NCBI RefSeq assembly: GCF_004684245.1
Contig: NZ_CP038452.1
Span: 1 to 64,000 of the forward strand
Length of the DNA stretch: 64,000 nucleotides
Direction of reading: 5' to 3'
DNA from: Thermus caldilimi
Lineage (GTDB): Bacteria; Deinococcota; Deinococci; Deinococcales; Thermaceae
This document shows, piece after piece, positions 42,820-46,186 of the stretch. Every line of letters begins with the position of its first letter. Positions within the stretch are counted from its first letter, which is position 1. The notes under the pieces were generated by a model. That model was given only the letters and a program-made list of their open reading frames with translations, ran no database searches and was not told the origin of the DNA. A program made the translations under genes and the position numbers.

Positions 42820-42848
42820 AGCTTAGTTAAGGGGGAAACCCCTGTCAA
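42820..42848 (-). promoter_or_regulatory. Promoter of the aroF-tyrA operon
   Basis: On the minus strand TTGACA (42848-42843), 17 bases, TAAGCT (42825-42820), predicted start near 42813. The TGA inside the -35 is the stop codon of the upstream VOC gene. The -10 overlaps the small palindrome TAAGCTTA. Confidence 0.8.
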
Positions 42849-43624
42849 GAGGGCGTAGGGGCCTTGGTCCTTGGACCTGAAAGGCGAACCTCTGCCCCTG
42901 TGGGATCCCTGAGGGCCATCTCCCGGCCCCAGGAATCCAGAAGGGTGTAGCCCAGAAGCCCAGTGGACCCTGGGGGGGCTTTCCGCCTTCCTGCCCAGAT
43001 GTTGGCTCCCACGTGGTGGTGGTAGCCATCCCAGGCGAAGAAGAGGGCCCCGGGGTAGGTGCGCAGGGTGACCTCCATGCCCAGCTCGCCCGCAAAGAAG
43101 GCCTCGGCTTCCTCGAGGCTTTCCACGTGGAGGTGCAGGTGGCCGAGGAGGGTCTCAGGGGGAAGGGGGCCGGGGCTTGGAGCCTCGGAAAGAAGCCTTT
43201 CCAGGTTCAGGGGAGCGGTGAACATCAAGGGTCCTTTGGGCCACTCCCCCTCAGGCCGGTCCCGGTAGAGCTCGAGGCCATTCCCCTCAGGATCGCGGAA
43301 GTACAGGGCCTCGGATACGCCGTGGTCCGCCGCGCCCTCAAAGTGGACCGGGGCGCTTAGGAGCTTCCGGGCCACCTGCGCCAGGGCCTTCCGGTCGGGG
43401 AGGAGGAGGGCGAAATGGTAGAGACCCACCGAGGGGTAGGGTCTTGGGAGGGCCTGGGGGTCGTGGAGGATCTCCAGATGGAACCCCTTCCCCTCAGGGA
43501 ATAGCCGGTAGCGGGGTGGGTCCGCCTCCACCTTTAGGCCCAGAAGGTCCCGGTAAAAGGCCAAGGCGGCCTCCAGGTCCCGCACCCTTAGGCTCAGGGA
43601 GGAAAGCCGCCTGGGGAAAGGCAT
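42845..43624 (-). CDS. Two-module VOC-family protein (glyoxalase/extradiol dioxygenase-like)
   Basis: A 259-residue protein with two vicinal-oxygen-chelate modules: LSSLSLRVRDLEAALAFYRDLLGL with ALYFRDPEGNGLELYRDRP (1-125), and GHLHLHVESLEEAEAFFAGELGMEVTL-type repeats (about 160-250). It resembles the CatE-like subgroup of catechol 2,3-dioxygenases. The usual first metal His of module 1 appears replaced (SLSL), while YHFALL, LELY and HLHLHV supply other candidate ligands. The substrate is unknown. Its ATG overlaps the YceI stop by one base, and its TGA lies in the aroF promoter. Confidence 0.8.
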   Translation of the reverse strand: MPFPRRLSSLSLRVRDLEAALAFYRDLLGLKVEADPPRYRLFPEGKGFHLEILHDPQALPRPYPSVGLYHFALLLPDRKALAQVARKLLSAPVHFEGAADHGVSEALYFRDPEGNGLELYRDRPEGEWPKGPLMFTAPLNLERLLSEAPSPGPLPPETLLGHLHLHVESLEEAEAFFAGELGMEVTLRTYPGALFFAWDGYHHHVGANIWAGRRKAPPGSTGLLGYTLLDSWGREMALRDPTGAEVRLSGPRTKAPTPS

Positions 43625-44160
43625 TACTGGGCCACCGCCTCCTTGCCCTTCACCGCCTCGGTGTCCACGCTGAAGCGCACCTCCTCGCCCACCAACACCC
43701 CGCCCAGCTCCAGGGGCACGTTCCAGGTGAGGCCGAAGTCCTTGCGGTTCAGCTTGCCCTCAAAGTGGGCGGCCACGCGCTCGTTGCCCCAGGGGTCCTG
43801 GGCGGGGCCATAGGTTTCCACCTCAAAGGAAAGGGGCTGGGTGACACCCCGGATGGTGAGCTCCCCCTCCACCCGGTATCGTCCCTCCCCCAAGGGGGTG
43901 ATCCGCTGGCTTTTAAAGAGGATTTCCGGGAAGTTATCCACATCCAGGAAGTCAGGGGAGCGGAGGTGGTTGTCCCGGTCCGGCACGCCGGTGTGGATGC
44001 TCTTGGCGTCCAGCCGTGCCTCCACCCGGAGGGGCCTCCCCGCCTCATCGGTTTCCACAAAGCCCTCTTTAAGGTTCAAGGTGCCCTTAACCGTGGCGAT
44101 CATCATGTGGCGCACGGCGAACTCCACGCTGGTGTGGGTGGGGTCTAGGTTCCAACGCAT
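43624..44160 (-). CDS. YceI-family polyisoprenoid-binding protein
   Basis: A 178-residue lipocalin-like YceI protein: MRWNLDPTHTSVEFAVRHMMIATVKG, SIHTGVPDRDNHLRSPDFLDVDNFPEI and GELTIRGVTQPLSFEVE are family hallmarks. A T. thermophilus homologue is known to bind a polyisoprenoid in its barrel. No signal peptide is visible, so it is cytoplasmic. It begins a two-gene unit with the VOC protein under a strong promoter carrying a palindrome in its spacer. A hairpin in the leader abuts the ribosome binding site. Confidence 0.93.
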   Translation of the reverse strand: MRWNLDPTHTSVEFAVRHMMIATVKGTLNLKEGFVETDEAGRPLRVEARLDAKSIHTGVPDRDNHLRSPDFLDVDNFPEILFKSQRITPLGEGRYRVEGELTIRGVTQPLSFEVETYGPAQDPWGNERVAAHFEGKLNRKDFGLTWNVPLELGGVLVGEEVRFSVDTEAVKGKEAVAQ

Positions 44161-44170
44161 TTCCGAACCT

Positions 44171-44222
44171 CCTTGGGCTCGAGGCCCAAGGGTATAGTAT
44201 CCATAGCGCTATAATCTGTCAA
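44171..44222 (-). promoter_or_regulatory. Promoter with operator-like palindrome and leader hairpin for yceI-VOC
   Basis: On the minus strand TTGACA (44222-44217), 17 bases, TACTAT (44199-44194). The spacer contains the perfect palindrome ATAGCGCTAT (44212-44203), a natural repressor site between -35 and -10. The leader then forms CCTTGGGC-CTCGA-GCCCAAGG (44191-44171), whose 3' arm runs into the AAGGAGG ribosome binding site. Confidence 0.7.
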
Positions 44223-44225
44223 GCA

Positions 44226-45038
44226 TTATCCCGGGTAGTAGCTGGGGGAGAAGGTGAGGCCCAGGGCCTGAGCGAAGGCCTGTAGGCCCAGGCGGTCGGG
44301 CTCCTCCAGGTGGTAGCGGAAGTTCCAGAGGTAGTGCTCCACCAAGGCGGGGTGGAGGCCAAGCCGCCGGGCCTCGGCCTCGGCCACCTCCCCAAGCCGG
44401 GCAAGCCCCTGGCGCCGGGCTTTCCTCAAGGCCTGCACCAGCTCCAGGGGGGGAGGGGTTTCCTTGCGGTAGGCCCAGACGGCGAAGACGAAGGGAAGGT
44501 GGGTGCGCGCAAACCAGAGCATGGAGAGATCCACCACCTCCACGTCCCCGAAGCGGGTGGGGAGGGCGTGGGGGGTTTCGGGGAGGTGGTCTAGAAGGCT
44601 GGCGTAGGCCCTTATGGCCCTGTCGCCGATCAGCAGGACCCCGTCGTATTCGTCAAGGAGCTCGAGCCCTCCTTCCCGGTTCTCGTACCGGGGGAAGCCC
44701 TCCTGTTCCCTTAAGAGAAGCTTCAGGAGCTCCACGCTGGTGGCGCTCTCCGTGGTGAGGGCGATCCGCCTTAGGTCTGCAAGCCTTCCCTTATGGAACA
44801 GGTTCACGGAGTACACCCGCCCCAGCACGGCCACGGAGAAGTCGGGGAGAAGCCCCAGCTCCTCCTGGTGCTTCAGGTAGAAGTAGCTGGAAACCAGGGA
44901 AAGCCCCACCTCCCCCGAGAGGACCAGGCGGTTGAGTTCCGAGGGGACCCCGTAGCGAAGGGCCCAGCCGTTGGCCTCCAGGAAATGGTAGAGGGGGGCG
45001 GTGTTGGCGTAGAGGGGAACCCCTAAGGAATAGATCAT
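44226..45038 (-). CDS. mqnA: Chorismate dehydratase MqnA (futalosine menaquinone pathway)
   Basis: A 270-residue periplasmic-binding-like enzyme that dehydrates chorismate to 3-enolpyruvylbenzoate, the first futalosine-pathway step. Segments LGVPLYANTAPLYHFLE, GEVGLSLVSSYFYLKH, ALTTESATSVELLKLLL and VLLIGDRAIRAY are characteristic. The frame is open upstream inside mqnE, but the ATG touching the mqnE stop (TGATG) is the natural start. It supplies menaquinone, the likely electron donor for PsrC. Confidence 0.93.
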   Translation of the reverse strand: MIYSLGVPLYANTAPLYHFLEANGWALRYGVPSELNRLVLSGEVGLSLVSSYFYLKHQEELGLLPDFSVAVLGRVYSVNLFHKGRLADLRRIALTTESATSVELLKLLLREQEGFPRYENREGGLELLDEYDGVLLIGDRAIRAYASLLDHLPETPHALPTRFGDVEVVDLSMLWFARTHLPFVFAVWAYRKETPPPLELVQALRKARRQGLARLGEVAEAEARRLGLHPALVEHYLWNFRYHLEEPDRLGLQAFAQALGLTFSPSYYPG

Positions 45039-46186
45039 CAGGCCCCTTGGGTACCTCCCTCGGCCAGAGGAGCCGCCACGCTGTCCCAGACCCGGATCTC
45101 CCGGTAAAGGGCGTCCCGCTCCACAGGGATCCGTCCCGCTTTGCGGATGATCTCCGCAAGCTCCCTCTTGGATAGCCCCTTGGGGGTGGGGCTTCCCGCC
45201 ATATGGACGATGCGCTCCTCGATCAGGGTGCCGTCGATGTCCGTGACCCCCCAGTCTAGGGAAACCTGGGCCAGCTCCGGGGTCAGGGTGGCCCAGTACC
45301 CCTTGACGTGGGGGATGTTGTCCAGGTAAAGCCGGGCCACGGCCAGGTTGCGGAGGTCGTCCAGGCCGGTGGTGAACTCCCGCTTGCCGAGCTGCTTTGC
45401 CAGCTGGTTGCCGTCCGGCTGGAAGGCCAAGGGAATGAAGCTCATGAACCCCCCGGTCTCGTCCTGGAGCTGACGGAGCCGGTCCATGTGGTCCAGGCGC
45501 TCCTCGAGGGTCTCGATGTGCCCGTAGAGCATGGTGGCGTTGGTGGGGATGCCCAGCTCGTGGGCGATGTGATGGATTTCCAGCCATCCCTCGGCGCTTA
45601 CCTTGGCCCGGGCGATCTCCTTGCGCACCCTTTCGGCGAAGATCTCCGCTCCTCCCCCCGGCATGGCGTCCAGGCCCGCCTCCTTGAGGGCCTGGAGCAC
45701 CTCCTTGTAGGGGAGGCGGGCGATCTTGGAGAAGTGGTGAATCTCCGCCGCGGTCCAGGCCTTCACCTGCACCCCGGGGAAGCTCGCTTTTAGGGCCCGC
45801 ACCAGGTCCAGGTAGTAGGAAAAGGGCCTTTTGGGGTGGTGGCCCGCCGTCATGTGGATTTCCGTGAGGCCGGGCTGGTACCGCTCCCGCACCCAGGCCA
45901 CAACTTCCTCCACATCCCAGTCCCAGGCCCCCTCCTCCCCGAACTTTCTCTGGAAGGCGCAGAAGGTGCAGCCCACGTAACAGATGTTGGTCTGGGAAAC
46001 GCGGATGGAATGGACGAAGTAGGTCTTGTGCCCGTGCTTTTTCTCCCGCACCCGGTTGGCCAGGCGCATGAGGCCTGGCAGGTCCCGGGTTCGGTAGAGA
46101 ACGAGCCCTTCAGCAAAGGTGAGGCGTTCGCTCGCCTCCACCTTTTCGGCGATGGGCCAGAGCTTGGGGTCCCGGATGCCCTTCAC
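45038..46186 (-). CDS. mqnE: Aminodeoxyfutalosine synthase MqnE (radical SAM)
   Basis: A 382-residue radical SAM enzyme that joins 3-enolpyruvylbenzoate to SAM, forming 6-amino-6-deoxyfutalosine. The cluster motif is CYVGCTFC (Cys69, Cys73, Cys76), with EIHMTAGHHPKRPFSYY, MPGGGAEIFAERVR and TNATMLYGHIET downstream. The start is GTG, overlapping the PIN-like gene stop by four bases. TAGACT ends seven bases before the GTG, so an independent leaderless promoter is likely. It is coupled to mqnA. Confidence 0.95.
   Translation of the reverse strand: MKGIRDPKLWPIAEKVEASERLTFAEGLVLYRTRDLPGLMRLANRVREKKHGHKTYFVHSIRVSQTNICYVGCTFCAFQRKFGEEGAWDWDVEEVVAWVRERYQPGLTEIHMTAGHHPKRPFSYYLDLVRALKASFPGVQVKAWTAAEIHHFSKIARLPYKEVLQALKEAGLDAMPGGGAEIFAERVRKEIARAKVSAEGWLEIHHIAHELGIPTNATMLYGHIETLEERLDHMDRLRQLQDETGGFMSFIPLAFQPDGNQLAKQLGKREFTTGLDDLRNLAVARLYLDNIPHVKGYWATLTPELAQVSLDWGVTDIDGTLIEERIVHMAGSPTPKGLSKRELAEIIRKAGRIPVERDALYREIRVWDSVAAPLAEGGTQGA

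Follow-up and report, generated by a model that had tools for sequence, protein, structure and literature searches.

The palindrome in the yceI promoter of Thermus caldilimi was found to be one half of a longer, conserved site. Comparison of promoters and gene neighbourhoods indicates that this site is probably the operator of an HxlR/DUF24 regulator of the YodB/CatR/QsrR type, set in the core promoter of an operon of yceI and a CatE-like gene (rough probability 0.7). Binding, repression and the nature of the signal are what we infer from these comparisons. In the proposed mechanism a dimer of the regulator would bind the site and block RNA polymerase. Quinone, catechol or similar electrophiles would modify a conserved N-terminal cysteine (CPVY motif), and the modified regulator would leave the DNA, so that YceI and the dioxygenase-like protein could be made. 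The Thermus regulator is encoded elsewhere in the genome (∼613.2 kb) and would act in trans. Switches of the YodB/CatR type are known; what appears to be new here, as judged from sequence, is an operator of its own and YceI as the main target.

The promoter and its two-unit site

The window analysed is a stretch of 64,000 nucleotides at the start of the contig, and all coordinates refer to it unless a genomic position is given. The promoter, TTGACA-N17-TACTAT, sits on the minus strand between mqnA and yceI, with both hexamers and the spacer near-ideal. The yceI start codon is an ATG at 44158-44160, minus strand. The features are as follows.

42845..43624, minus strand: CatE-like gene of the glyoxalase/dioxygenase superfamily, touching the yceI stop codon and probably the second gene of the yceI operon (PF00903 and motifs)
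43624..44160, minus strand: yceI, YceI family (polyisoprenoid-binding lipocalin type), 178 aa (PF04264, E 1.3e-43)
44168..44174, minus strand: ribosome binding site AAGGAGG (sequence)
44171..44191, minus strand: leader hairpin CCTTGGGC-CTCGA-GCCCAAGG, 8-bp stem and 5-nt loop, probably at the 5' end of the mRNA (sequence and folding)
44194..44199, minus strand: -10 element TACTAT, after a 17 bp spacer (sequence)
44202..44224, minus strand: putative operator GCTTGAC-N5-ATAGCGCTATG, covering the -35 element and the spacer (position and related sites elsewhere)
44203..44212, minus strand: ATAGCGCTAT, the palindrome and right unit of the putative operator (sequence)
44217..44222, minus strand: -35 element TTGACA (sequence)
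44219..44227, minus strand: left unit of the putative operator, AATGCTTGA, overlapping the mqnA stop codon and the -35 element (sequence)
44226..45041, minus strand: mqnA (menaquinone biosynthesis, PF02621), upstream neighbour of yceI and probably not part of the switch

The sequence-only reading had described a repressor-like palindrome within a perfect TTGACA-N17-TACTAT promoter. All of its statements about the sequence hold, on the minus strand, and the proposed repressor operator within the core promoter gains support from related promoters, extends beyond Thermus and can be given a candidate regulator. The repressor idea, which is supported, is narrowed to a regulator family and a probable regulon. 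The palindrome itself is real, but it is the right half of the two-unit site GCTTGAC-N5-ATAGCGCTATG. Lack of conservation in orthologous promoters would have counted against the sequence-only reading, and this was not what was seen: the core survives in 19 of the 23 yceI promoters from Thermus, although the exact form is in only five.

The exact palindrome ATAGCGCTAT occurs once in the 2.45-Mb genome. With one mismatch it was found at 11 places including the yceI promoter, and the reversed pattern, used as a control, at 4. A perfect 10-bp palindrome is expected by chance in ∼0.8% of 17-nt spacers of such composition and in ∼5% of 64-nt stretches; conservation provides a stronger test. The remaining 10 one-mismatch places were examined with 60 nt on each side and their nearby open reading frames, and a large regulon of the bare palindrome within this genome was rejected: only one lay in a promoter-like position before a gene. 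At that place (L189:1501-1510; G000:C1:563755-563764) ATATCGCTAT lies in the spacer of TTGCAA-N17-TTAATC, and since the gene behind it is a ZnuA-like zinc-uptake gene, a site for a zinc regulator (Zur) is probably the likelier reading there. Elsewhere in the window, ATAGGGCTAT was noted at 2783-2821 with GCTTGACATCGTAATAGC nearby on the opposite strand; the latter is kept in many Thermus genomes and is probably coding.

A full-length yceI orthologue (78-100% identity) was present in 23 of 27 Thermus genomes; it was absent from G001, G002 and G014 (each ∼99% complete) and from G020 (65% complete). TTGAC was kept in all 23 yceI promoters and the spacer core was [AT]AGC[AG]CT in the 19 mentioned. 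The left unit was of the GCGCTTGAC type in 13/23 and ATGCTTGAC in 4/23, the window among them. What is conserved is therefore a pair of units spaced 17 bp from each other, one lying on the -35 element and one in the spacer. Searched with one mismatch, TTGAC-N6-WAGCRCTW-N4-TANNNT recovered yceI from 21 of the 27 Thermus genomes, with 3 further places in total, and the reversed composite pattern gave 1 place in the same 27 genomes. No further clear target of the site was found within Thermus itself. A reading as a direct repeat only was discarded: AGCGCTT-N10-AGCGCTT, with one mismatch, returned from the 27 genomes the yceI promoters together with scattered sites, most of them rich in GC, whose letters made them look like chance (L058 alone of these was read). 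AGCGCT is its own complement, so that direct and inverted repeats are indistinguishable in Thermus.

Outside Thermus, TTGAC was found in 19 of 21 yceI promoters of Meiothermus-like (Meiothermus/Calidithermus-type) genomes, most of which carry a site resembling GCTTGAC-N5-ATAnnnCTAT. The exact palindrome ATAGCGCTAT occurs in two of these 21 (L063, L064) and in one Clostridia and one Bacillota MAG (L260, L263). In part of the promoters of other Deinococcales the site takes the form GCGCTTGACATTCT..AGYGCT, and at L215 there is a perfect inverted repeat of the 9-5-9 form, AGCGCTTGA-CATTC-TCAAGCGCT. MAGs whose titles name Clostridia, Dormibacterota, Chloroflexi and Armatimonadota contain close versions as well (GCGCTTGACCGTTCATAGCGCTATG in L260 is one), and the site recurs in part of the examined promoters of Trueperaceae, Bacillota, Dormibacterota, Chloroflexi and Armatimonadota.

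For 90 non-redundant promoters out of 113, the best match to GCNCTTGACN5ATAGCRCTATG was compared with 100 dinucleotide shuffles at p<=0.02; the p-values are descriptive, since the consensus was composed after the same sequences had been viewed. The threshold was passed by 23/23 Thermus-type promoters (22 Thermus and one sister genus), 20/21 Meiothermus-like, 9/20 other Deinococcales, 3/4 further Deinococcota MAG and 13/22 other-phyla promoters, leaving 11/20 other-Deinococcales and 9/22 other-phyla promoters that failed.

For the YodB/CatR/QsrR subgroup an inverted-repeat operator with half-site centres ∼11 bp apart would be expected. Symmetry about an axis between the -35 element and the spacer unit (9-5-9) was counted as the mean number of complementary pairs. 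In 24 Thermus-type promoters this axis gave 5.92 of 9 pairs, the next axis 3.88. The values for ten other Deinococcales were 5.7 and 3.8, the remaining 10 of 20 being left out for want of a TTGAC anchor. For the 21 Meiothermus-like promoters, two of them anchored on TTTAC, the axis gave 4.19 pairs and was not the best (other axes 4.57 and 4.33). One dimer may span both units, or each unit may bind a separate dimer.

The candidate regulator and its possible regulon

The gene that diverges from yceI in Meiothermus-like genomes encodes an HxlR/DUF24 winged-helix regulator. The Meiothermus orthologue in L067 matched PF01638 with E 1.8e-22 and 79.4 bits (curated cutoff 20.8). The Thermus regulator matched solved chains of YodB, YybR, HxlR and QsrR, the nearest being YybR (6.8e-13), which we take to be HypR, and YodB (8e-13); QsrR was weaker (2e-6 to 5e-6). 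Among the named redox HxlR models of NCBIfam the best was RrpB, at 66.1 bits against a cutoff of 175, and the regulator is therefore not filed as RrpB, YodB or QsrR.

By coordinates, the regulator is divergent from 20 of 21 full-length Meiothermus-like yceI genes and from yceI in 15 loci out of the 20 fetched for other Deinococcales, where 26 full-length ones were listed. When genome contigs were scanned using the regulator alignment, 72 loci came up, a set that overlaps these two, and in 48 of them the regulator is divergent from yceI. The other 24 loci have the regulator without yceI: ten from Thermus and one from a Thermaceae MAG (L216-L226), three from Rhodothermus/Bacteroidetes and ten others. 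The Thermus regulator is unlinked to yceI; in the present genome it lies on the plus strand, and the Thermus proteins share 61-70% identity with the Meiothermus one. Three near-complete Thermus genomes have no yceI: in G001 there is no orthologue of the regulator, in G002 a decayed remnant is left, and in G014 the regulator gene is still present. The remnant in G002 lies at L185 (G002:C3, ∼24.2-24.5 kb), in a genome also without the CatE-like gene.

All 62 regulators read have Cys-Pro within their first 30 residues, and in the 26 from Thermus and the sister genus (the start of the sister-genus protein being provisional) this N-terminal cysteine is the sole one. The N-terminal cysteine has been reported to be reactive in members of the HxlR/DUF24 family. 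By eye, no clear copy of the site lies in the promoter of the unlinked Thermus regulator, and autoregulation in Thermus was dropped as a proposal on that ground. The Thermus regulator gene appears to be leaderless, with TACCAT/TACAAT ∼6 nt before the ATG at most loci read (L159-L184). A second HxlR-family gene, ∼32-41% identical to the first, is present in many Meiothermus-like genomes, often just downstream (e.g. L063:2555-2881).

The product of 42845-43624 matched the PF00903 superfamily model. Against the curated catechol 2,3-dioxygenase model TIGR03211 it scored 47 bits, below the cutoff of 320.2, and its putative resemblance to CatE rests on motifs. CatE-like sequence follows yceI in 22 of 23 Thermus loci and runs at full length with no stop codon in 18 of 23 genomes. 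It is broken or interrupted in G017, G018, G023 and G025, and absent from G008 and from the four Thermus genomes lacking yceI. TT1927b of T. thermophilus (1wub) was dropped as an orthologue of the window's yceI product (P0001), being closer by eye to a Meiothermus-type YceI (L063); this comparison suggests that T. thermophilus may have a second, possibly transferred, yceI.

Further sites were searched in 50 genomes of the family with GCTTGAC-N5-ATANNGCTAT, allowing two mismatches. Of the 78 matches in the 22 Meiothermus-like genomes, 19 lie at yceI and the other 59 at different places (reversed pattern, 38). All 59 were fetched. Seven stand immediately upstream of MhqO-like ring-cleaving dioxygenase genes, and two upstream of DoxX genes. 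Behind the other 50 no MhqO-, DoxX-, CatE-, MhqD- or YceI-like gene was found, and most lie inside long open frames; together with the 38 reversed-pattern matches, this indicates that most of the non-yceI matches are due to chance. At L067 an MhqO-like protein (E 1.2e-75 to the solved MhqO) is encoded after yceI, and the next gene matched the MhqD model with E 1.4e-38, below its cutoff.

A DoxX-like gene takes the divergent position beside the regulator at L228 and L235, from two Rhodothermus MAGs, and at L229, from a Bacteroidetes MAG. The doxX promoters there have a CTTGAC-containing stretch with only 12-14 of the 19 consensus letters; at L229 a CatE-like gene follows doxX. At L275, from a Truepera MAG, the gene divergent from the regulator is itself CatE-like. 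In most loci outside Thermaceae no CatE, MhqO or MhqD relative was found near yceI within the stretches examined. By site or by neighbourhood, the regulator thus appears linked to genes for ring-cleaving dioxygenases and quinone detoxification. Similar AT-rich promoters were noted as GCTTGACAATTTATAAAGCTAT in L296 (G030) and as ACTTGACAGATTATAAAGCCAT in three Thermus loci, L298 (G008), L350 (G022) and L352 (G025). An uncharacterised gene starts just downstream in L296 and L298, and this could be another conserved site.

It is highly improbable that nothing more than a strong sigma-A promoter with an AT-rich spacer has been conserved and that the palindrome is due to chance. TTGAC and the -10 are promoter elements in their own right, and a 10-bp palindrome will now and then arise in 17 nt, but the AGCGCT core stays where a promoter needs nothing, while the N5 stretch and the bases before the -10 drift, and in Thermus very few places other than yceI carry the composite pattern. 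That some other regulator binds the site, the neighbouring HxlR gene being merely linked, is quite unlikely. The lack of linkage in Thermus would fit such a protein, as would G014, which keeps the HxlR gene without yceI; against it are the adjacency of the HxlR gene and yceI in several phyla, their joint loss from two Thermus genomes, and the presence of the HxlR gene with a partly similar site at doxX operons that lack yceI.

Some weight, short of making it likely, attaches to the same HxlR-type protein binding the site and activating the promoter, or sensing aldehydes or formaldehyde in place of quinones. HxlR of B. subtilis is an activator, itself activated by formaldehyde through Cys11 and Lys13, and many Thermus species have a weak TAnnnT as their -10, at which an activator could help. 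A protein bound over the -35 element and the spacer should nevertheless block polymerase, and the hexamers and spacer in the window are near-ideal already. The genes behind the additional sites fit quinone or catechol detoxification, and in the regulators read the residue two after the cysteine is not the lysine of the formaldehyde sensor.

Relation to known quinone-responsive systems

CatR and YodB, both DUF24 proteins, repress catDE in B. subtilis; CatD is a DoxX protein. The operator of QsrR, a further member of the group, is GTATA-N5-TATAC. The present system resembles CatR/YodB-catDE in its HxlR-family regulator with an N-terminal cysteine, in the position of the site in the core promoter, and in the occurrence of CatE-like and DoxX-like genes among the neighbours or the site-bearing genes. 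It differs in the letters of the operator, in having yceI as the main target and in the unlinked regulator of Thermus. YodB is described as sensing quinones through Cys6 and preferring TACT-N7-AGTA, and the present site can be read as CTTG-N7-ATAG, with equal spacing (PMC8063818). With a single cysteine, the Thermus regulator could form no disulfide of the Cys6-Cys101' kind found in YodB.

QsrR of S. aureus is alkylated at Cys5 by quinones in vitro, and its regulon includes the ring-cleavage dioxygenase genes catE and catE2 (PMC6798810). The N-terminal cysteine and the link to ring-cleavage dioxygenases are shared with the present system, but the sequence is more distant than that of YodB and yceI is not among the targets named in the QsrR passages of that paper. 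The mhqRED operon is controlled by MhqR, a MarR protein with a thiol-independent response to quinones and a 9-9 bp inverted repeat as operator (PMC6798810). Genes of the MhqO/MhqE dioxygenase and MhqD esterase types, as in the MhqR regulons of Bacillus and Staphylococcus, are found in Meiothermus-like loci, whereas the regulator there is of the HxlR/DUF24 and not the MarR family. MgxR (Bxe_B3018) of Burkholderia xenovorans is an electrophile-responsive regulator with a YceI-family gene in its operon (PMC4349456). It was rejected as a precedent for an HxlR-yceI pair: its authors' sequence analysis places it in the TetR family, its operator is unrelated and it responds to methylglyoxal (PMC4349456). 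The HxlR-yceI pairing was not described in the titles and abstract openings of the literature searched, a statement that applies to that literature and makes no claim for print at large.

The choice of quinones or catechols as the signal draws on the CatR, YodB, QsrR and MhqR precedents, on reports that YceI lipocalins bind octaprenyl compounds or ubiquinone-8 (PMC9113575), and on the reported induction of a Ralstonia yceI by the phenolic methyl gallate (PMC8472277). In Thermus, yceI lies beside menaquinone synthesis genes, and the true signal could for this reason be an endogenous electrophile of menaquinone or the futalosine pathway. A wider proposal is tentative, and we hold it less likely to be right than wrong: a cross-phylum module in which a single-cysteine HxlR sensor of quinones or catechols would be joined to YceI as the core quinone-stress lipocalin, capturing or carrying prenyl- or reactive quinones and passing them to ring-cleaving dioxygenases. 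YceI proteins are widespread and bind isoprenoids or ubiquinone, and this poorly understood family would gain a testable role. A conserved operator, a candidate regulator and quinone- or catechol-cleaving enzymes together offer a direct and cheap test of a role in quinone stress. If borne out, they would give Thermus, a thermophile amenable to genetic work, a quinone sensor.

Published expression data from T. thermophilus HB8 may bear on repression. From the HB8 gene order, we presume TTHA0801 and TTHA0802 to be the CatE-like gene and yceI, respectively. In a disruptant of RNase HI these genes were reported up 12-fold and 35-fold, and in a disruptant of Argonaute 18-fold and 56-fold (PMC4229858). 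If the two are the genes presumed, the operon would be strongly repressed in normal growth. These data were kept out of the confidence figure given above.

The leader hairpin

An 8-bp hairpin ending in the AAGG of AAGGAGG had also been described, with a possible temperature or translational control. The hairpin is present and is kept in nearly all Thermus, but its AAGG may be unpaired in the real mRNA. A promoter of such geometry would start transcription ∼7 nt after the -10. Here that position falls within the 5' arm of the hairpin, so that the CCTT arm would be missing from the transcript and AAGG may stay unpaired. Control by temperature finds no support: at every temperature between 37 and 75°C the prediction keeps the full stem folded, which leaves no range in which a thermometer would open, and an RNA thermometer is unlikely on this model. 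Translational control fared partly better, masking by the 5' side being predicted as possible with the whole stem transcribed and absent once the first 6 nt are removed.

Folding of the window's leader at 70°C with the whole stem transcribed left the core of the ribosome site a predicted ∼10% unpaired (∼90% paired), and the last bases of the site were predicted to pair also with codons 4-6. With the full leader at 70°C, the core was paired to its 5' side with a probability >0.5 in 11/23 Thermus and 0/21 Meiothermus-like leaders, and with the first 6 nt removed in 0/23 and 0/21. Pairing of the core to the coding region exceeded 0.5 in 0/23 Thermus leaders at full length and in 3/23 with 6 nt removed.

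Across 22 distinct Thermus leaders 82.3% of the stem cells were paired, falling to 65.7% or less when the stem was slid. The covariation score was 0.139 against 0.108 in shuffles (reached in 4/500), and a slide of +3 gave 0.136. Pairs changed on both sides were matched in 180/500 shuffles and cells in 36/500, and covariation was rejected as proof of the hairpin because it is weak. The mean folding z was -1.46 in 24 Thermus-type leaders and -1.08 in 21 Meiothermus-like leaders. Of the upstream stretches of 119 mechanical open reading frames in the window (>=150 aa), 10 fold as stably.

That the hairpin, besides the operator and compatibly with it, hides the ribosome site by translational masking or as an RNA thermometer is very doubtful. 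The ∼90% pairing in the window, to the hairpin and to codons 4-6, would favour masking, as would the 11 Thermus leaders with 5'-side pairing, the paired stem cells and the covariation score. Against this, the stem is predicted to be folded at every temperature considered, masking by the 5' side is seen in none of the 23 Thermus leaders with 6 nt less at the 5' end and is absent from the Meiothermus-like leaders either way, the covariation is weak and nearly as high after the +3 slide, and the 10 other upstream stretches in the window are equally stable. The hairpin would be an element separate from the operator, most simply a 5'-terminal stabiliser of the mRNA. The stem scan returned none in L014, nor in L062 of the sister genus. 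A stem is also present in this region of many Meiothermus-like leaders, but with an unrelated sequence.
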